Assembly: GCF_001192795.1 (NCBI RefSeq)
Contig: NZ_DF968179.1
Location: forward strand, 186,001-250,000
Length of the DNA: 64,000 nucleotides
From: Flexilinea flocculi
Lineage (GTDB): Bacteria > Chloroflexota > Anaerolineae > Anaerolineales > Anaerolineaceae
Direction of reading: 5' to 3'
Shown here: positions 4,189 through 64,000 of the stretch, piece after piece
Layout of the letters: each line of letters starts with the position of its first letter
Numbering within the stretch: the stretch's first letter is position 1
Position numbers and translations under genes: made by a program
The notes under the pieces: generated by a model
The model's database searches: none
Told to the model about the DNA's origin: nothing
The model's input: the letters and a program-made list of their open reading frames with translations, nothing else

Positions 4189-4369
4189 CAGTAATTTGAA
4201 ATCAGAAAAAGCTTTATAGAAAAAAGAGAAATCTTGTTGTTATGGTGTTTTTATGCTTCGCGCAAAAACATCATGACTACAAATAATTCAATACATGTTT
4301 CGAACAACGGATGAAAAATATTACATATCCAATCATGAAAATTGAATTCTATTTTCGTAGGAATTACTG
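4189..4369. repeat. Intergenic palindromic element, long composite copy R2
   Basis: Left end CAGTAATTTGAAATCAG; central hairpin at about 4233-4282 with GTGTTTTT and AAAAACATCA arms around ATGCTTCGCGC. Next is an ATGTTTCGAAC block and a further extension ending in GGAATTACTG. The extension is shared with the copy at 54174-54352. It lies between the membrane-protein pair and frr. Confidence 0.8.
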
Positions 4370-9966: not shown

Positions 9967-10088
9967 GCTGTAATGTAAATTCTGGAAAAGCCTTTTGAGA
10001 GAAACATGAAAAATTGTGTTTGTGGTGTCAGTCTGAGAAACGTATAAACAGCAGATCACAATTTATTCTTCTCTTTTTTCAAATAACC
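9967..10088. repeat. Intergenic palindromic element, degenerate copy R5
   Basis: Third unit of the row. It has a CTGTAATG left end, an inner inverted repeat AAATTGTG (10011-10018) / CACAATTT (10057-10064), and a decayed right end (TTTTTTCAAATAACCG). Confidence 0.45.
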
Positions 10089-12397: not shown

Positions 12398-12443
12398 CAG
12401 CAATTCCTGCGAAAATAGAATTCTATTTTTGCAGGAATTGCTG
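12398..12443. repeat. 46-bp near-perfect palindrome, minimal form R6
   Basis: Arms 12398-12420 and 12421-12443 are reverse complements with a single mismatch. It begins CAGCAATTCCTGC and ends GCAGGAATTGCTG, the same outer bases as the dispersed family. The right arm resembles the terminal extension of the long copies at 4189 and 54174. Confidence 0.8.
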
Positions 12444-13127: not shown

Positions 13128-13245
13128 GATATATCTCCTTAATATTTATTTTTCGTTTTATTTCACTTTCAATAATGATGTTATCGACCAGTCTTGAAAA
13201 AGGAATGAAGAAGATGTGAAGATTTGATGAAGATTCTTTTTGCCC

Positions 13246-13306
13246 CGAAATTCGAAATACAAACCAACTGAACAACAAGTAATTCTCTTCATATTTCAAA
13301 TTGCTG
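13246..13306. repeat. Intergenic palindromic element, partial copy R7
   Basis: GAAATTCGAAATAC on the left and TCTCTTCATATTTCAAATTGCTG on the right. The right end stops 13 bases before the lexA -35 hexamer. Confidence 0.6.
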
Positions 13307-15315: not shown

Positions 15316-15432
15316 CAGTATTCTTAAATTTGGTAAAACCTTTAATTGAAAAAGTGAAATTTTATTGTTGTGTTGTGCTCCGTTCAAAAACATCGCAACA
15401 ACAAAAAATTCTCCCGATATTTCAAATTGTTG
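15316..15432. repeat. Intergenic palindromic element, full copy R8
   Basis: Starts CAGTATTCTTAAATTTGG; hairpin arms ATTGTTGTGTTG and CATCGCAACAACAA; ends CCCGATATTTCAAATTGTTG. It lies between the glycosyltransferase stop and the epimerase gene. Confidence 0.75.
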
Positions 15433-20044: not shown

Positions 20045-21160
20045 TCAACGGAATATTTTGCCTGAATTGTACCAACTCGATTTTGGAATAGATCTTCTCG
20101 TATCGTAATCAGCCAGAAATCGGTTCATAGCAAAGAATAAATGTTCCATGTCTTTTTCAGTCGCACTGTTCATGTGGGCTATAACGAAAAAAGTATCTTT
20201 CATTTCACCGGGGCAACTTCCGATGGATATACCATACCCGTCTAAGAAACCGATCAGGTCTGCCGGAGTGAATTGAGGAAGCGTTTGTAGAACGGAAAAA
20301 TTCGGGGATGAGGATTGCGGGTCTGCTAAGAGTTGAAAACCTTTTGATACTGCCCATGTTTTTACCAATTCTGAAAGGTGTTCAATCCGCTGAATTCTTT
20401 GTTCAATTCCTTCATACTGAATTTCTTCCAATTGTCTTTCCAGAGCATACAGCAACGGATAAGGAATGGGTGAAGTGATTGAATTATCTCGCATCAGCAG
20501 CTGTCTGTTCAGATTCAAATACCATCCTTTACCTGGATTTCCCAGCGCCTTAAAATTTGCATGTTCATCCAGAGCGATCATTCCGAACCCCGGTGGAAGT
20601 CCCAGCGATATCTCACTGCATGCCAGCATGACATCAATTTCCAATCCAAATTTTAATGGTTGAACGCTGGTTATACTTGAGGAGCAGTCTGCTATGATGA
20701 TCGTTTCTGGCGAGTTTTTGCGAATTATCGCTGAAAGCGCTGGAATGTCATTATATATGCCGGCGTATGGATCAATTTCCACCAGGCAGACAGCATCAAA
20801 ATCCCGTTCCATGATTCTTTTTTCAAATTGGGCGAGAGAAAAAACATTTCCATAATTTGCATCAAAAATTGAAACATTGATTTCCATATTCTTGCTGATA
20901 TCCAGCCATTGTTTTGAAAGCGGTCCATTAACACAAATTAAAACCTCTTTCTGAACGAAACTGTTCAAAGCTATTTCGTACAAACCTTCCCGTGAACAAT
21001 GGAAAAATTCCAGCAAATATGCATCCGGAAATAATAGCTCCTTAGTCCGAGTCTTCAGATCAATTTGGAAATCCGAGATGGAAAGGGGCTGTGATTTTGC
21101 CTGAGCAGCCAGAACCACAGGAGAAACATCCGCCGGAATCGGTTTAAAATTTAATCCCAT
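20045..21160 (-). CDS. Class V aminotransferase homologue lacking the PLP lysine
   Basis: 371 residues with the overall layout of serine/alanine-glyoxylate aminotransferases: SREGLYEIALNSFVQKEVLICVNGPLSKQW, then TIIIADCSSSITSVQPLKFGLEIDVMLACSEISLGLPPGFGMIAL. In active relatives the last segment reads SQK-x-LGLPPG, with the lysine forming the Schiff base; here that position is Ile184 (SEISLGLPPG). The aspartate IIADCSS is kept. The reading frame is intact and the rest is family-like, so this is probably a pseudoenzyme or has another chemistry. Convergent with the CrtI-like gene. Confidence 0.75.
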   Translation of the reverse strand: MGLNFKPIPADVSPVVLAAQAKSQPLSISDFQIDLKTRTKELLFPDAYLLEFFHCSREGLYEIALNSFVQKEVLICVNGPLSKQWLDISKNMEINVSIFDANYGNVFSLAQFEKRIMERDFDAVCLVEIDPYAGIYNDIPALSAIIRKNSPETIIIADCSSSITSVQPLKFGLEIDVMLACSEISLGLPPGFGMIALDEHANFKALGNPGKGWYLNLNRQLLMRDNSITSPIPYPLLYALERQLEEIQYEGIEQRIQRIEHLSELVKTWAVSKGFQLLADPQSSSPNFSVLQTLPQFTPADLIGFLDGYGISIGSCPGEMKDTFFVIAHMNSATEKDMEHLFFAMNRFLADYDTRRSIPKSSWYNSGKIFR

Positions 21161-21212
21161 GAATAAACTCTTGATGCATGAATATAAAAATTACCCGCTT
21201 TCAGGTTTTTCC

Positions 21213-21334
21213 CAGTAATTCGAATTATAAAAAGAGTATGTTGTTGTTCTGATGGTTTTATGCTTCGCGCAAAACCATCAGAACAACAAATTTCTTTCTT
21301 TATTCGAAAAGTCAATCCATATTTCGAATTGCTG
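21213..21334. repeat. Intergenic palindromic element, full copy R10 (near consensus)
   Basis: Left end CAGTAATTCGAATTATA; right end CCATATTTCGAATTGCTG. The central hairpin has 17-base perfect arms GTTGTTCTGATGGTTTT and AAAACCATCAGAACAAC around ATGCTTCGCGC. The best-preserved copy for the hairpin. Confidence 0.9.
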
Positions 21335-21587
21335 AGTTTTTCCTCTGAAAAGGGTAACCATGAATATAAAAAAGTAAACAAATCAACACATTTCTTCTCG
21401 TTATTTATTCAGAAAAACCGAAAAGACAGCGTTGTCTGTCATTTAATTCGCCATATATTTGGCGTTTATGTTGATGCAAAATAATTACTGATCTTTTTTC
21501 TTCTTTTTTCAGCGAGTCTGGATTGCAGAGAACCTTTATTCTAAAGCTCAAATCAACTGTAGAATAATCTGTATCTGGAGGTTCGTG

Positions 21588-21698
21588 TTCCGAAATTTGG
21601 ACAAGTCATTAAAAAAAATAAATTCGTTATCATGTTGTTTTCTTGCAGAGCGTAAAAAACACGATAACAATTATTCCTTGCCAAATTTCGAATCGCTG
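21588..21698. repeat. Intergenic palindromic element, full copy R11
   Basis: Hairpin arms contain GTTATC and GATAAC; the loop (TTGCAGAGCGTAA) is in the reverse orientation. Right end CCAAATTTCGAATCGCTG. Read on the minus strand, the hairpin is followed by a run of eight T, and it lies 29 bp after the stop of the sortase operon, so it can serve as its terminator. Confidence 0.8.
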
Positions 21699-21937: not shown

Positions 21938-22825
21938 CTAATCTCTGAGTTTTCCTGTCACGACGATTCTTTGATTATCGACAAGATAAGGATAACAGGA
22001 AATCAGTGTTATCGTTGCGTTTGATGTTTGGGCTAACACCTCAACTTGCGTTGGTTGTACAATCTGTGTTCCCTGAACGTTATAAGTATAAGTCATTTTT
22101 TCCGTTAAGATAATAATTTCATCACCTGTTTTTAATTGATCCAGTTTTCGGAATACCTGTCCGAAAATATCGTTATGTCCGGATAAGATAATATTGCCTG
22201 GTTTTCCTGCCTTGGCGCTGTAACTGTTGAGACCTACACCTTTTTTCAACGATTCCCAATCATCCCCCTGGATAATCGGAGCATCCACTTCGATGGCAGG
22301 AATTCTGATACGGACAATTTGCTCTCCAGATAGGTCAGGGATCGGTGACGGTTGAACTGAGTCAACAATATCTCTCAGATGTTCGGGAATTTCATTCTGA
22401 TTGAACGATGTTTTACCGCTTGCATCCGGGGGTGTATGACCACCGGGAAGTACAATTGCCTGGATCAGCGGCGTCGGCGTCAATGTCGGCAGAACCATTG
22501 CCCTGGATGCCTCCTGATTAATGTCTGTCAGTATCTGCGTGCCGATAATCAGCATGACTACGATTCCAATAACGGCTGCGATTTCAATGAAAAGCAAAAT
22601 TTTGTCGAATTTTCTAATTGGAGGAATTAAAGGCATCTTTTCCAGAACCTCTCCTTCCGGTTTCCATTTCAGCTCTTCGTTGATAGGAGCGTTTTCTTCA
22701 TCGACCGTACGTCCTGATGCCCTATAGGAAGCGATTCTTGCCTCTCGTCCAAGAACTTTTTTTTGCATCAGACGGTATCGCAGTTCTTCTTCGGTTAATT
22801 CATCCGCATATTTCTTTCGTGTCAT
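21938..22825 (-). CDS. Sortase
   Basis: 295 residues. A basic cytoplasmic N-terminus of about 75 residues, a transmembrane helix (ILLFIEIAAVIGIVVMLIIG, about 75-94), a Thr/Pro linker, and a C-terminal sortase beta-barrel. The catalytic His217 is in LSGHNDIFG, Cys277 in TLISCYP, and Arg286 in NQRIVVTG. The family cleaves LPxTG-like signals and links proteins to the wall or builds pili. No substrate with a clear sorting signal is encoded in this window. The ATG lies six bases after a TATAAT on the minus strand (22837-22832), so the mRNA may be leaderless. Confidence 0.93.
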   Translation of the reverse strand: MTRKKYADELTEEELRYRLMQKKVLGREARIASYRASGRTVDEENAPINEELKWKPEGEVLEKMPLIPPIRKFDKILLFIEIAAVIGIVVMLIIGTQILTDINQEASRAMVLPTLTPTPLIQAIVLPGGHTPPDASGKTSFNQNEIPEHLRDIVDSVQPSPIPDLSGEQIVRIRIPAIEVDAPIIQGDDWESLKKGVGLNSYSAKAGKPGNIILSGHNDIFGQVFRKLDQLKTGDEIIILTEKMTYTYNVQGTQIVQPTQVEVLAQTSNATITLISCYPYLVDNQRIVVTGKLRD

Positions 22826-24050: not shown

Positions 24051-24172
24051 CATCGATTCGAGCTATTGATTGGCTTTTCGGAAAGAGAGTGAAATATTAT
24101 TGTTGTGATTTTTCTTTCGCTTTCCGCAAAAACAACACTACAAAAAAATCCTCTCTGTATTTCGAATCGCTG
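24051..24172. repeat. Intergenic palindromic element, full copy R13
   Basis: Left CATCGATTCGAGC; an inner block GCTTTTCGGAAAGAGAG; hairpin arms ATTGTTGTGATTTTT and AAAAACAACACTACAA; right end CTCTGTATTTCGAATCGCTG. Confidence 0.8.
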
Positions 24173-24202: not shown

Positions 24203-24329
24203 CAGCAAATTAATTTAAAATATAGACATTCTTTTCGAATAGAGAAAGAAAATATGTTATTGTGATGTTTTTACGCTCTGCGCAAAAACGCCACAATAAC
24301 TGTTTATTTTTTTAAATTTCGGAACACTG
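24203..24329. repeat. Intergenic palindromic element, full copy R14
   Basis: Left CAGCAAATTAATTTAAAATA; inner block TTTTCGAATAGAGAAAGAAA; hairpin arms GTTATTGTGATGTTTTT and AAAAACGCCACAATAAC around ACGCTCTGCGC; right TTTCGGAACACTG. It is 31 bp after R13 in the same orientation. Confidence 0.85.
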
Positions 24330-30738: not shown

Positions 30739-30838
30739 CTGCGATTCGAAATTTCGGAGAATTCTTTGTTGTTGTGTTGTCTTTGCGCGAGGTGCAAAAG
30801 CAACTTAACTACTTTTTTCTCTCAAAATTCGAATTGCT
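30739..30838. repeat. Intergenic palindromic element, full copy R16
   Basis: CTGCGATTCGAAATTTCGGA on the left, hairpin region TTGTTGTGTTGTCTTTGCGCG, right CAAAATTCGAATTGCT. It begins ten bases after the terminator. Confidence 0.75.
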
Positions 30839-30871
30839 ATTTTTTGAAAATTGTCAAATAATTCAAAAAAT

Positions 30872-34920: not shown

Positions 34921-35035
34921 GCAGTTGAAAAAAGAATTCTTTATCGTTGTGTAATTTTTTACGCTTCGTGAAAAAATTGCACAACGATTTTTCTTCTCTT
35001 TCCTCAGGTATCCTCTCGAATTTGTTTGATTACTG
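34921..35035. repeat. Intergenic palindromic element R18, likely rnj terminator
   Basis: Hairpin arms ATCGTTGTGTAATTTTTT (34943-34960) and AAAAAATTGCACAACGAT around ACGCTTCGTG, followed by a T run. It begins four bases after the rnj stop. The ends are diverged (GCAGTTGAAAA; TTTGATTACTG). Confidence 0.75.
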
Positions 35036-40727: not shown

Positions 40728-40850
40728 CTTTAATTCAAAATTTGGATTCGCTATATGAATAAAGGAAGAAAAAATTATTGTTGTGAAATTTATACGCGAA
40801 AATAAAAACATCATAACAACAAAGGATTCTCTCCATATTTCGTATTGTTG
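40728..40850. repeat. Intergenic palindromic element, full copy R19
   Basis: Left TAATTCAAAATTTGG; hairpin arms ATTGTTGTGAAATTTATA and AAAAACATCATAACAAC; right end CTCTCCATATTTCGTATTGTTG. Confidence 0.8.
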
Positions 40851-41396: not shown

Positions 41397-41519
41397 CAGC
41401 GATTCGAAATCGGAGATGGATGAATTGTAACTGATCATTTTTTGCTAAGCGAAATAATAAGATCAGTAATAAATATTCTTCCTTTTCTAAAAATGTTTAT
41501 CGTATTTTCGAATTATTGA
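41397..41519. repeat. Intergenic palindromic element, full copy R20
   Basis: Left CAGCGATTCGAAATCGGAGA; hairpin with ACTGATC and GATCAGT at its base and TTTGCTAAGCGAAA at its top (loop in reverse orientation); right end GTATTTTCGAATTATTG. Confidence 0.75.
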
Positions 41520-54173: not shown

Positions 54174-54352
54174 CAGCAATTTGAAATATGGGGTGACCTT
54201 TCGAATAAAAAGACGAAATTTGTAATTCTTATGGTTTTACACTCCTTGCAAAACCATAAGAATAATTATTATTTTTTATATTTCGACCGACAGATGAAAA
54301 ATATTACACATCCAATAATGAAATTTGAATTCTGTTTTCGTACGAATTGCAG
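54174..54352. repeat. Intergenic palindromic element, long composite copy R25
   Basis: Left CAGCAATTTGAAATATGGGG; inner block CTTTCGAATAAAAAGACG; hairpin arms TTCTTATGGTTTT and AAAACCATAAGAA. After ATATTTCGACC it continues with the same extension as R2 and ends GAATTGCAG. Confidence 0.85.
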
Positions 54353-54780: not shown

Positions 54781-54819
54781 ATTTGAAAATAGATGACTGT
54801 GTTTGATACGAGGAAATGG

Positions 54820-57800
54820 ATGAGTATTCGAAAGTATATACGATTTGTATTCCCTGTATTCTTGATCATTCTTGTGTTTTTCAGTCTTCATATTCATTCT
54901 TCAAAAGGTTATTCTTCAGGACAATATACAACAGTTCGGGTTGGTTATTTTATTTCCGAATCTTATCAGGACATTTCACCAGATGGAACGCGCAGTGGAT
55001 ATGGTTATGAATTTCTTCAGCGAATCAGTGACTACGCTGATTTTAATTATGACTACGTTGATTGTATCTGGAGCGAATGTTTGGAGAAATTAAAAAATGG
55101 CGAAATAGATCTGCTGACATACGCCGGATATTCTCCAGAAATTGATAAATTTTTTGATTATTCGCAGAAAATAATGGATTACGGATATGGTGCTTTATTG
55201 GTCAAAAAGGACGACAATCGATTTTTCTATAATGATTTTGAAAAATTCGATCAGATGAAAGTAGCAATTCAAAAAGGAAGTATCCGAAATCACCAGCTTG
55301 AAGAATTTGCTCGAGAAAATAATTTTTCTCTGCAACTAATCGAATATTCCAGTATTTCAGAAATGCAGGCAGCGATTGAAAATCATCAAGTTGACGCAAT
55401 TGGGATCTCTAACCAGTTCGTACCTTCAAATTATAAAATTATCACCAGATTTGGATTTGACCCTTATTATGCAATTGTTAAACAAGGAGATACGGAATTA
55501 TTATCGAAGTTAGATCAGGCGATAACCTCCATTGAGCTGGACGATCCCTTATTTAAGAGCAGGTTGTATGAAAAGTATTATGCTTCGAGAAATACTTTTT
55601 CAATTGCGCTGACTCGGGAAGAACACGAGTACATTGCATCTCATGGACCATTTATTGTAGCAGCAGCTTCCAAACGGTATCCTTTATCTGCTTATGATCC
55701 TGAAACAAATAAATATACTGGTTTTGAAAATGCAATTCTATCCGATCTCGCTGAAAATATCGGAATGGAACTTCAATATATTGAAGTAACCTCTTATGTA
55801 GATCGGATTAATAAAGTACAAAGTGGTGAGTCGGATATCATGATCGATATCAGTTATGATTCCGGATTACCTGTCGGTTCCACGATCAAAAAAACTGTTC
55901 CCTATCTATCATTGCCTTATTTAAGTATCTCCCGCAAGGATTTTCAAGGGGATAATCCCCGAATTATTATTCATCCCAGTTTGAATTACGCAGTGAAATA
56001 TGTTCTGAAACTGCCGAGCGACGAAGTGACGATTTGCACTGTCCTGCGTGACTGTATTCGAGCAGTGCGAGATGGGTCTCGAGATATCACCTATGCAAGC
56101 TTATATGAAACCGAATTATTGTTGAAAGAACGAGAAAATAAAGATTTGGTTTCAACAATCAGCAGTGGTTTTTCAATTCCAATCAGCTTCGGAATTAACA
56201 GTGAAAAGAATCCATTACTGATCAGCATACTGAATAAACAGATCCAAGCGCTTGGATCTGAAAAAATCTCTGACATTATTACCGGTTTGACTGTTGGGCA
56301 AAAAGAACCGGTCACTATTCGAAGTATATTTGCAAAATATCCAAATTTATATTTCATTCTTTTTTCTATTGTAATAATAATTGCTGTAGTAATTTTCATT
56401 TGGCGCCGCAAATCGGAAATCATGCTCTATAAAATGGCTTATGAAGATGAACTAACGCGGCTTAAAAATATCCGTTGGCTTGAAAAAGAAGGACAGGCGA
56501 TTATTCAAGCTAACCGCTTTCGCAATTATGCAATACTGTCGATGGATGTTGATCGTTTTGATGTGATCAACGATTGTTATGGGCGTTCAATCGGCGATGA
56601 CATCATTCGACATACAGCTTCTGTTCTGCAAAAAGAATCCGACTACGGTCTTGTTCCAGTGAGGGTTAAGGCGGATCACTTCGTCAGTTTGATCCCATAC
56701 CTTAGTATGGATTCTCTGAATCGTGATCTGTTGTATCTTCATCATAATTGCAGCGCTTATCGGAAAGGCGATACTTCGATTACGCTTCATATGAATTTTG
56801 GCGTTTATTTAATCCCGGATCATGATCAGATGATTACAACTGCGATCAATCGGGCTGAGATTGCAAGAATGGAATCAAAAACATCATCATCGCTCGTCAC
56901 TTTTTATAACGAGACCATGCAGGAAAAACTGAATTATGAGAAAACACTGGAAGACATTCAAAGCCAGGCTTTGCGAGACCATGAATTTCAAATTTTTTAT
57001 CAACCAAAATTCAATATGAAATCCGGTTCAATCATCGGCGCAGAAGCGCTTGTGAGATGGGATAGTAAAGAAAAAGGTTTTATGTTTCCCAGTGCCTTTA
57101 TCCCATTATTTGAGCGAAATGGTTTTATATTACAGTTGGATGATTATGTTTTAGAAGAAACATGCAAGATGATCAGACGCCGCTCTTTATATGGGCAAAA
57201 AATCGTTCCGATTTCTGTCAATCAATCTCGAGCGCATCTTGCAGAAGAGCATTATATTGACCGATTGAAGTTTTTTCTTGAAACTTATCATATACCAAAA
57301 TATCTGATCGAGTTGGAATTGACAGAGACTGCTTTGGCCGAGACGGATAATGCGCAGGAAATTATGTCGCTGATGCGGGATATTGGATTCCTTATATCGA
57401 TTGATGATTTTGGCTCCGGATTCTCTTCTCTTACTCTGCTGAATACTGTTCAGTTTGATATTATGAAATTGGACAGAAATTTTCTATCAGAGACATATAT
57501 TTCCAAGAGAACAAAAGATATCTTAACGCATATCGTTGCAATGGCACATACGCTGAATATTCAGGTAATCTGCGAAGGGATTGAAACCAAAGAACAGTCG
57601 GATTTTCTCATGAGTGCCGGTTGTCTGTACGCACAAGGCTTTTATTATTCCAGACCTGTTTCGCAAGCTGATTTTGAAAAGAAACTGGATGCTGCTTCAA
57701 CCAGTACGAATGAATGGGTTTATGGATATCAACAGGATAATGAGACAAATCTTTCTGCGCAGCAACCGAAAACATCTGCCAGAAAAATGTTCGAATCATT

Positions 57801-59583
57801 TCTGAACGCAATGTATATTGAGCGAAACTCAGAAAAAGCGCTGTCGTTTTTATCTTCCGATGTGTATATTTATGATCCGACTTCTTCTGAAGGCGTATTA
57901 ACCAAATCGGAATTTGGAATGCAGATTACGAACCAGCTTGAAAACAATGTCATGCCGTATATTTATGAAATTGAACGATTCAGTGAAAAAACGACACCGG
58001 ATGGCAGCGAGGATATTTTTGCCGTACTTTCGATTGACCAACTAAATATCACTGCTGATCAGAATAAGACAAAACTTTGCATGTCAGCGTCAATCACCAA
58101 TCTCAGTGGAAAATCTTACATTGAGACTCTTCATATCTCCTATATCAGCGATCTGAAGAAAGATTTGCTGGTGGAAAATGCTGTTAATGAAAGAACCAGT
58201 TTCAATTTATTAAATGAACAGTTTCCGGGTTGTGTGGTCGGATGTTATGTGAGTCCTCAATTTCCGCTTTTCTTCTTTAATCCACAGTTATTGAGCTTAT
58301 TCGGATTTACTATGGAAGAATTTCGTGAAGTATCAAAAAATGGACTGATCAACCTCGTGTATGAAGATGACCGGCAGAAACTTTGGCAGACAATCATCAA
58401 CACACCTGAGCAGCACGAATATGAAATTGATATTCGTCTGATGAAAAAAGACGGAAGTCTGCTCTGGCTTCGCGATCGCGGCAGGCGAATTAAAGCAAAA
58501 AATGGGATGGATGCCGTATTAGCTGTTCTGATGGATATTACTGAAAAGAAAAAGGCACAAATGGAACTTGAGCTGGAAAAAACTCGCTATCAGGTACTCG
58601 TGGATTGTACCGAAGCGATTGTTTATGAATATGATTACAAGAAAGATTTGATGCTTTTTAATTACAAGATTAATACGCCTCAAGGAAAAACACCGGAATC
58701 GATATCCTTTCCTGCTTTTTGTCAAAATATTTATCAAAACAATTTTATTGCTGATGAAGATCGTGTTCAGCTTGTTTCATTCTTGCAAAATGGCAGATCC
58801 AATAAAGATTTCGAATTTCGGCTGATAAATTCCTTTGAATCCGGTAATGAATATTTATGGCATCGAATTAATGGAACGGTTCTTTTTGATGATGATGGCA
58901 ATCCGATCCAGAGCATCGGTTTGATTATTAACGTTGATGATGAAAAGAAACAGATTTCCAAATTAACTGATGAAGCTCGCCGGGACAGCCTGACAGGATT
59001 ATATAAAAAATCAGCTCTTGAATACCTGGTTCAAAAAGAAATTCAAAACACCGAAAAAGGTGTTAGTCATGCATTCATCATTATTGATATGGATGAATTT
59101 AAAAAAGTAAATGATGTTTGCGGTCATCCATATGGTGATGTAATCTTACGGGGATTAGGGCAGGTCTTATTAAAAACGTTTCGCAGTGATGATATTGTCG
59201 CACGAATTGGCGGAGATGAATTTGTAGTCTTTGTCAAAAATATTAAATCCAAAAATCAACTGCGTCAGAAGATCGTGACTTTCTTTGACCTGATGAAAGG
59301 CGATTTTTTTCGAAATTTCATTCAAGAAAATGGACGAAGTCTTTGCCATATTTCCGCAGGCGGGCTGCTCTGCAAAGATTGCCAAATTGTTTTCTCTTGT
59401 TGTGTCGGAGTATCGATGTTTGATGAGGATGGAACGAACTTTGATACGTTATATGGTGCAGCGGATATTGCACTTTATGAGGCGAAGAAGCTTGGACATT
59501 TCCGTTTTGTTTTCTATTCATCAGAAATGAAAAAGAGTGTCTTTGGAACTCAGTCCGGAATTGAATCCAATTCAAATCATTAA
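54820..59583 (+). CDS. Giant c-di-GMP protein: two solute-binding sensor domains, GGDEF-EAL, NTF2-like, two PAS, GGDEF
   Basis: 1587 residues. An N-terminal membrane segment, then two tandem SBP_bac_3-type domains (about 35-255 and 265-480), and a transmembrane helix near 507-530. A degenerate GGDEF follows (about 540-690; VKADHFVSLI at the active site), then EAL (about 715-960; GAEALVRW, ELTETAL, DDFGSGFSSL, CEGIE), an NTF2/SnoaL-like domain (about 985-1110), two PAS domains (about 1127-1247 and 1253-1377), and a second GGDEF (IGGDEF near 1464, with RSDD inhibitory site). The EAL motifs look active, so it may both break and make c-di-GMP in response to an amino acid-like ligand. ATG at 54820 has GAGG six bases upstream; 54793 is a weaker start. 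Confidence 0.92.
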   Translation: MSIRKYIRFVFPVFLIILVFFSLHIHSSKGYSSGQYTTVRVGYFISESYQDISPDGTRSGYGYEFLQRISDYADFNYDYVDCIWSECLEKLKNGEIDLLTYAGYSPEIDKFFDYSQKIMDYGYGALLVKKDDNRFFYNDFEKFDQMKVAIQKGSIRNHQLEEFARENNFSLQLIEYSSISEMQAAIENHQVDAIGISNQFVPSNYKIITRFGFDPYYAIVKQGDTELLSKLDQAITSIELDDPLFKSRLYEKYYASRNTFSIALTREEHEYIASHGPFIVAAASKRYPLSAYDPETNKYTGFENAILSDLAENIGMELQYIEVTSYVDRINKVQSGESDIMIDISYDSGLPVGSTIKKTVPYLSLPYLSISRKDFQGDNPRIIIHPSLNYAVKYVLKLPSDEVTICTVLRDCIRAVRDGSRDITYASLYETELLLKERENKDLVSTISSGFSIPISFGINSEKNPLLISILNKQIQALGSEKISDIITGLTVGQKEPVTIRSIFAKYPNLYFILFSIVIIIAVVIFIWRRKSEIMLYKMAYEDELTRLKNIRWLEKEGQAIIQANRFRNYAILSMDVDRFDVINDCYGRSIGDDIIRHTASVLQKESDYGLVPVRVKADHFVSLIPYLSMDSLNRDLLYLHHNCSAYRKGDTSITLHMNFGVYLIPDHDQMITTAINRAEIARMESKTSSSLVTFYNETMQEKLNYEKTLEDIQSQALRDHEFQIFYQPKFNMKSGSIIGAEALVRWDSKEKGFMFPSAFIPLFERNGFILQLDDYVLEETCKMIRRRSLYGQKIVPISVNQSRAHLAEEHYIDRLKFFLETYHIPKYLIELELTETALAETDNAQEIMSLMRDIGFLISIDDFGSGFSSLTLLNTVQFDIMKLDRNFLSETYISKRTKDILTHIVAMAHTLNIQVICEGIETKEQSDFLMSAGCLYAQGFYYSRPVSQADFEKKLDAASTSTNEWVYGYQQDNETNLSAQQPKTSARKMFESFLNAMYIERNSEKALSFLSSDVYIYDPTSSEGVLTKSEFGMQITNQLENNVMPYIYEIERFSEKTTPDGSEDIFAVLSIDQLNITADQNKTKLCMSASITNLSGKSYIETLHISYISDLKKDLLVENAVNERTSFNLLNEQFPGCVVGCYVSPQFPLFFFNPQLLSLFGFTMEEFREVSKNGLINLVYEDDRQKLWQTIINTPEQHEYEIDIRLMKKDGSLLWLRDRGRRIKAKNGMDAVLAVLMDITEKKKAQMELELEKTRYQVLVDCTEAIVYEYDYKKDLMLFNYKINTPQGKTPESISFPAFCQNIYQNNFIADEDRVQLVSFLQNGRSNKDFEFRLINSFESGNEYLWHRINGTVLFDDDGNPIQSIGLIINVDDEKKQISKLTDEARRDSLTGLYKKSALEYLVQKEIQNTEKGVSHAFIIIDMDEFKKVNDVCGHPYGDVILRGLGQVLLKTFRSDDIVARIGGDEFVVFVKNIKSKNQLRQKIVTFFDLMKGDFFRNFIQENGRSLCHISAGGLLCKDCQIVFSCCVGVSMFDEDGTNFDTLYGAADIALYEAKKLGHFRFVFYSSEMKKSVFGTQSGIESNSNH

Positions 59584-59613: not shown

Positions 59614-59726
59614 TAACGATTTGAAATTTTGAAAGGATGATTCGTTGTTGTGTTGTTTTTACGCTGCACACAAAGACAACACAACATAACAACCACAAAA
59701 ATTTTTTCCCAAATTTCGATTTACTG
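59614..59726. repeat. Intergenic palindromic element, full copy R27
   Basis: AACGATTTGAAATTTTGAAA on the left, hairpin arms TTGTTGTGTTGTTTTT and AAAGACAACACAAC around ACGCTGCACAC, CCCAAATTTCGATTTACTG on the right. It lies between convergent genes and could stop both. Confidence 0.8.
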
Positions 59727-63882: not shown

Positions 63883-64000
63883 CTATAATTTGAAGTATGT
63901 ACTCGTTATTCAAATCAAGCGAAAAAAAACTGATTGTTATGATGCTTTTGCGCTTCCCGCATAAGTGTCGTGACAATAAAGAATCCTCACCATATTTCGA
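63883..64000. repeat. Intergenic palindromic element R29, cut by the window end
   Basis: Left TATAATTTGAAGTATG, hairpin arms GATTGTTATGATGCTTTTGC and GTGTCGTGACAAT, right CACCATATTTCGA at the edge. Bases 63778-63882 show nothing I can name. Confidence 0.8.

Follow-up and report, generated by a model that had tools for sequence, protein, structure and literature searches.

A new MITE family whose central palindrome differs between copies while its arms stay complementary

The repeat at 21213-21334 and its parent element

The window, the whole stretch of 64,000 nucleotides that was analysed, holds between the ORFs 20045-21160 (minus strand) and 21938-22825 (minus strand, a sortase) one copy of a 122-bp repeat, at 21213-21334, with terminal inverted repeats of consensus CAGYAATTCGAAATATG. 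The consensus of the repeat is 123 bp long, and individual copies measure 122–123 bp and have no coding capacity. From left to right it consists of CAGTAATTCGAAATATG, a spacer of about 11 bp, the palindrome (two 23-bp arms around a 3-nt loop), a second spacer of about 29 bp and CATATTTCGAATTGCTG, the terminal inverted repeats being 17 bp each; in well-defined copies the centre of the hairpin lies at 48–53. The parts of the copy are these:

21204..21212, plus strand: left 9-bp target-site duplication, GGTTTTTCC
21213..21334, plus strand: full MITE copy, model positions 1-123 (HMM 113 bits; 8/9 target-site duplication; site empty in G010)
21213..21229, plus strand: left terminal inverted repeat, CAGTAATTCGAATTATA (consensus CAGYAATTCGAAATATG)
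21241..21263, plus strand: central hairpin, left arm
21264..21266, plus strand: triloop TTC (GAA in other copies)
21267..21289, plus strand: central hairpin, right arm
21318..21334, minus strand: right terminal inverted repeat, reading CATATTTCGAATTGCTG on the plus strand, an exact consensus match
21335..21343, plus strand: right 9-bp target-site duplication, AGTTTTTCC

The flanks of 66 two-ended copies agree at exactly 9 bp (0.527 against 0.293, z = 12.5), no other length giving a comparable signal in this comparison, and by a mixture estimate a true duplication fits only about half of the two-ended copies. In the genome CAGYAATTCGAAATATG has 839 matches at ≤2 mismatches, and its reversed control has 0. 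The site occupied at 21213-21334 is empty in the syntenic G010, a congener with conserved gene order and ~80% nucleotide identity, where the target coincides with the loop of a small inverted repeat (CCCGTTTTCAG...CTGAAAACGG).

Searching the repeat's own genome for transposase domains revealed a full-length insertion sequence (IS) at L041:821-2452. Its two ends, CAGCAATTCGAAATATG and CAGTAATTCGAAAAATG, lie 1632 bp apart, carry the same terminal repeats as the MITE and are flanked by a perfect duplication, GCATTCTGT. The intact gene within it encodes a 446-aa transposase that matches DDE_Tnp_1 and DDE_Tnp_1_assoc with scores below the Pfam curated cut-offs. In an alignment with relatives from Calothrix, Anabaena and a Parachlamydiaceae bin, D128, D216 and E344 are invariant, and their spacing and context suggest that they form the DDE triad. 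Two cyanobacterial relatives are 39–40% identical to this transposase. The IS that carry them have CAGCAATTCTCATTTT as their ends and are flanked by perfect 9-bp duplications, so that both the duplication and the initial nine bases, CAGCAATTC, are common across phyla. Since the genome contains a full-length IS that shares these ends, encodes a DDE transposase and is flanked by a perfect 9-bp duplication, the 122-bp repeat at 21213-21334 is a non-autonomous transposable element (MITE), and the repeat is a new MITE family. The L041 transposase, or a close relative, probably mobilises it in trans. The IS is single-copy in G000, the genome of the repeat, which holds MITEs by the hundred, and neither of the MITE-rich congeners G010 and G003 yielded a copy of it, so the transposase that moved the MITEs there is unseen. 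The full-length IS has no central hairpin like that of the MITE. The DDE_Tnp_1 genes L040 and L073 were also considered as parent and were rejected, having no matching pair of ends.

With a profile derived from the copies, 24 copies or fragments were detected in the window and 164–167 in 464 kb sampled from the same genome, a sample mildly biased because its 20-kb stretches were picked for the good copies they contain. Extrapolation from the counts of terminal repeats puts the copy number at roughly 650–880 in 3.5 Mb. Both G010 and G003 are rich in copies, and none was found outside the genus among 27 sampled genomes. Because turnover is very fast, orthologous copies shared by G000 and G010 are too few and too decayed for single loci to be followed. 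Profile matches in the window besides 21213-21334 include the following, R-numbers being those of the original prediction:

4189..4308, minus strand: MITE copy
9970..10088, minus strand: MITE copy
13204..13306, minus strand: partial MITE copy, model 1-89
15326..15432, minus strand: MITE copy, model 1-113
21589..21698, minus strand: MITE copy, the second in the intergenic gap of 21213-21334, likewise absent from G010
24052..24172, minus strand: MITE copy
24212..24329, minus strand: MITE copy (R14)
30741..30840, plus strand: MITE copy
34929..35002, plus strand: partial MITE copy (R18)
40732..40850, minus strand: MITE copy
41397..41517, plus strand: divergent MITE copy (R20)
54174..54289, minus strand: MITE copy (R25)
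59624..59726, minus strand: MITE copy, flanking genes convergent
63886..64000, minus strand: MITE copy truncated by the window end

Several arrangements involve more than one element. At L009:4496-4749 two copies lie head to tail, each adjoining an AAATTACK target sequence, as if one had inserted at the edge of the other. Two 71-bp stretches, 4295-4365 and 54278-54348, are 87% alike and extend two copies outward to a second type of palindrome; they are perhaps parts of a longer composite element. That palindrome has half-copies at 4344-4369 and 54327-54352 and is near-perfect over 46 bp at 12398-12443 (CAGCAATTCCTGCGAAAATAGAA / TTCTATTTTTGCAGGAATTGCTG), where it starts with CAGCAATTC, as the IS ends do. 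The flanks of 12398-12443 show no 9-bp duplication by eye, and this palindrome may be a further MITE, of minimal size, that is served by that transposase. Elsewhere in the window, 54793-59583 encodes a protein of 1596 aa that combines solute-binding, PAS, EAL and GGDEF domains, and the only Rfam matches are to tRNAs and to a ribosomal protein L10 leader RNA (RF00557, 39517-39650).

Covariation in the shaft and inversion of the loop

Folding of the 122-nt element is much stronger than that of dinucleotide-shuffled controls, both as DNA (z = -7.7) and as RNA (z = -10.0). The original prediction held that the stems of this hairpin differ between copies while pairing is preserved, and every pair of arms that it quoted is present at the right spacing:

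Window copy 21213-21334: TTCTGATGG at 21247 / CCATCAGAA at 21275
R25: TTCTTATGG at 54226 / CCATAAGAA at 54254
R18: TTGTGTAATT at 34947 / AATTGCACAA at 34975
R20: ACTGATC at 41430 / GATCAGT at 41461
R14: TTATTGTGATG at 24257 / CGCCACAATAA at 24289

In 73 two-ended copies, drawn from two species, pairing of the hairpin amounts to 95.0%, and 20 of its 23 pairs have changed on both sides. Its covariation score is 0.324, compared with 0.108 after shuffling (0/500 reach the observed value) and at most 0.088 when the partners are slid. The terminal inverted repeats of the same 73 copies, which vary between copies about as much as the hairpin does, show no covariation (0.099 against 0.110 shuffled); the effect is therefore specific to the hairpin, and goes beyond the copying of one sequence, as had been proposed. 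The same distinction is seen in the differences between arms, which amount to 4.6% within a copy and 24% between copies for the inner 16 pairs of the hairpin, and to 23.8% and 22.5%, respectively, for the terminal repeats. The arms of the central 23-bp palindrome are thus complementary within each copy and differ between copies.

Perfectly paired inner stems occur in 89 copies, comprising 52 distinct sequences and at least 76 compensated changes, and 33 edges of the spanning tree that joins the 52 stems are changes of a single pair. The compensated changes include 53 transversions and 23 transitions, a composition richer in transversions than that of the left end of the element (155:118), although the difference is marginal (p = 0.048). 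In the third species, G003, the copies have 9-bp duplications, and inner stems are perfect in 20/21 of them, with 11 distinct stems; these copies were selected as BLAST hits to the consensus, a choice that favours intact elements. The hairpin has the same length and position throughout the subfamilies and species.

On a tree for which only the flanks were used, the pairs of the shaft change jointly, whilst the apical pairs and the terminal repeats change mostly separately. Summed over the four apical pairs, parsimony requires 36 steps on the left, 35 on the right and 61 for the two jointly, as for mostly independent change, and the apex of 21213-21334 itself contains a T-G pair and an A-C pair. 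The covariation is confined to the shaft, at least 5 pairs from the loop. The suggestion that the apex is a conserved mini-stem, CGC-NNN-GCG, is weakened to that extent: the motif varies without compensation.

The triloop is found in reverse-complement pairs: TTC in 43 copies and GAA in 28, AAA in 14 and TTT in 13, TCC in 13 and GGA in 7, TCT in 6 and AGA in 5, with TCC in 9 and GGA in 3 in G003. As the orientation of a copy is defined by its asymmetric flanks, independently of the loop, these pairs represent loops in both orientations. Loop orientation has no phylogenetic signal, requiring 19 changes on the flank tree compared with 18.4 when shuffled, whereas stem type (column 38) tracks that tree closely (4 changes against 24.2). 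The common GAA/TTC loop with its GCGC arms includes GCGAAGC, a very stable DNA mini-hairpin.

What keeps the arms matched

Arm homogenisation together with spacer inversion is the published footprint of template switching, and for this reason we consider that the hairpin is probably maintained mainly by polymerase template switching within the MITE. During replication the polymerase would repeatedly switch template between the arms of the palindrome, or to the other strand. Fold-back copying would rewrite one arm from the other, so that a new mutation would be lost or else transferred to the partner, in which case the change would look compensatory, and interstrand switching would invert the 3-nt loop. 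The apex may act as the primer in fold-back copying, which would fit the lack of covariation in the apical pairs. Both features expected of a template-switched inverted repeat are seen here, arms homogenised within each copy and a spacer found inverted. Template switching between the arms of inverted repeats has been described to yield these two outcomes, in yeast with literal TTC/GAA spacers (PMC8604942), and Monttinen and Loytynoja argued that the process is able to create and maintain hairpins (PMC8794818). We lean slightly, and with less assurance than for the process itself, to the view that switching is so frequent that it has randomised the orientation of the loop. Our search of the open-access literature turned up no bacterial MITE for which this process had been reported.

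Two forms of selection were put forward originally, on a folded RNA and on a DNA cruciform. A transcribed hairpin under selection, as a terminator, an RNase III site or a small RNA, would account for the very strong RNA fold and the formal covariation, and transcripts of MITEs are stem-loops, some of which are processed (PMC10969869). The details nevertheless speak against it, and we regard it as quite improbable: in pairs 1-20, G-U (G-T in the DNA) and A-C mismatches are equally common (68 and 66), with no G-U excess and no strand preference, and the compensated changes are mostly transversions, which no wobble intermediate bridges. Nor is there a strand bias relative to genes in tandem gaps (64:49), the loop is present in both orientations, copies are denser in divergent gaps (1.96 per kb) than in convergent ones (1.33 per kb), and 21213-21334 has no Rfam match. 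The absence of a G-U excess, the dominance of transversions and the lack of strand bias leave selection on RNA unsupported. A role in transcription termination was rejected, there being no enrichment between convergent genes and no strand preference. The other proposal held up in so far as the cause appears to lie at the level of DNA. If the palindrome aided transposition, by joining the ends or shielding an intermediate, or were tolerated only where it extrudes cleanly, then only copies with intact pairing would spread. Copies with 8-9/9 duplicated bases do have inner stems that are 96.5% paired, the equality of G-T and A-C mismatches is what such selection predicts, the element folds strongly as DNA and GCGAAGC is present in the common loop. 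It leaves unexplained, however, a loop inverted without phylogenetic signal, which points instead to template switching; the apical pairs, which folding requires, do not covary, and the full-length IS has no such hairpin. As the explanation in its own right, DNA-hairpin selection in transposition is possible but unlikely. It fits most of the data except the loop inversion, and it may act alongside template switching as a possible addition, and the narrow range of hairpin length and the persistence of the hairpin in three species could reflect selection, which is a point against template switching alone.

Two further accounts invoke the history of the copies. Gene conversion among dispersed copies, in either orientation, could homogenise arms and flip loops, given hundreds of copies per genome and the homology of a palindrome to itself in either direction. 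A stem converted from another copy would, however, be transferred whole, and the copies would come to resemble one another, whereas the two arms match inside each copy and the copies differ, and the terminal repeats show no homogenisation within copies; we judge this improbable. That different palindromes were inserted independently, or that there were a few founder subfamilies in which compensation did not continue, is scarcely tenable. Two main stem types, TTCTTATGG and TTGTGTTGT, do cover much of the variation and track lineage, but each contains many variants compensated at a single pair, among the 52 distinct perfect stems, and the hairpin is identical in length and position in all subfamilies and species. 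Independent insertion of palindromes, which had been named as an outcome that would count against the covariation, is refuted for most of the variation by these many one-pair variants. Template switching between the arms, the mutational cause to which loops in both orientations without phylogenetic signal point, had been omitted by the earlier reader.

Covariation is the standard proof of selection on structured RNA. Here the test is strongly positive for what appears to be a mutational process at the level of DNA, and the terminal repeats, taken from the very copies tested, provide a negative control. False RNA families could therefore arise from palindromes borne by repeats. The present MITE family provides replicate palindromes in three species in which the rates and spectrum of bacterial template switching, and loop inversion, are measurable. 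If template switching is indeed the cause, the family would constitute a natural reporter of mutation, replicated hundreds of times, in which strong covariation is clearly produced without RNA selection.

Comparison with known systems

Like other bacterial MITEs (Correia/NEMIS, RUP, Chunjie, Nezha, MITEAba12; PMC10969869), the family is short, non-coding, AT-rich and intergenic, with terminal inverted repeats, a target duplication, ends shared with an IS and transcripts that would fold. It differs in having a separate central 23-bp palindrome that diversifies while still paired, and its ~650–880 copies are at the high end of the figures in that review, which gives 711 copies of ERIC in Photorhabdus (PMC10969869). 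The parent IS resembles a group from cyanobacterial plasmids, one relative being annotated as ISNCY family, in its transposase (39–40% identical to two of them), in ends that begin CAGCAATTC and in the 9-bp target duplication. The subterminal sequence, however, is unlike that of the group, the host is a distant bacterium and the L041 transposase falls under the Pfam DDE_Tnp_1 cut-off. REP/BIME palindromes are also intergenic and present in high copy number. REPs are described as 20–40 bp long with a GTAG or CGTC tag (PMC3733652); the present element is set apart by its full terminal repeats, its 9-bp duplication and its association with a DDE transposase. The closest mechanistic parallel is quasipalindrome template-switch mutation (the Ripley model; PMC8604942, PMC8794818), which shares the arm homogenisation, the spacer inversion and the 3-nt TTC/GAA spacers. 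That process is known from genes and rRNA hairpins (PMC8604942, PMC8794818), whereas here the palindrome lies within a mobile element that supplies natural replicates by the hundred along with an internal control.
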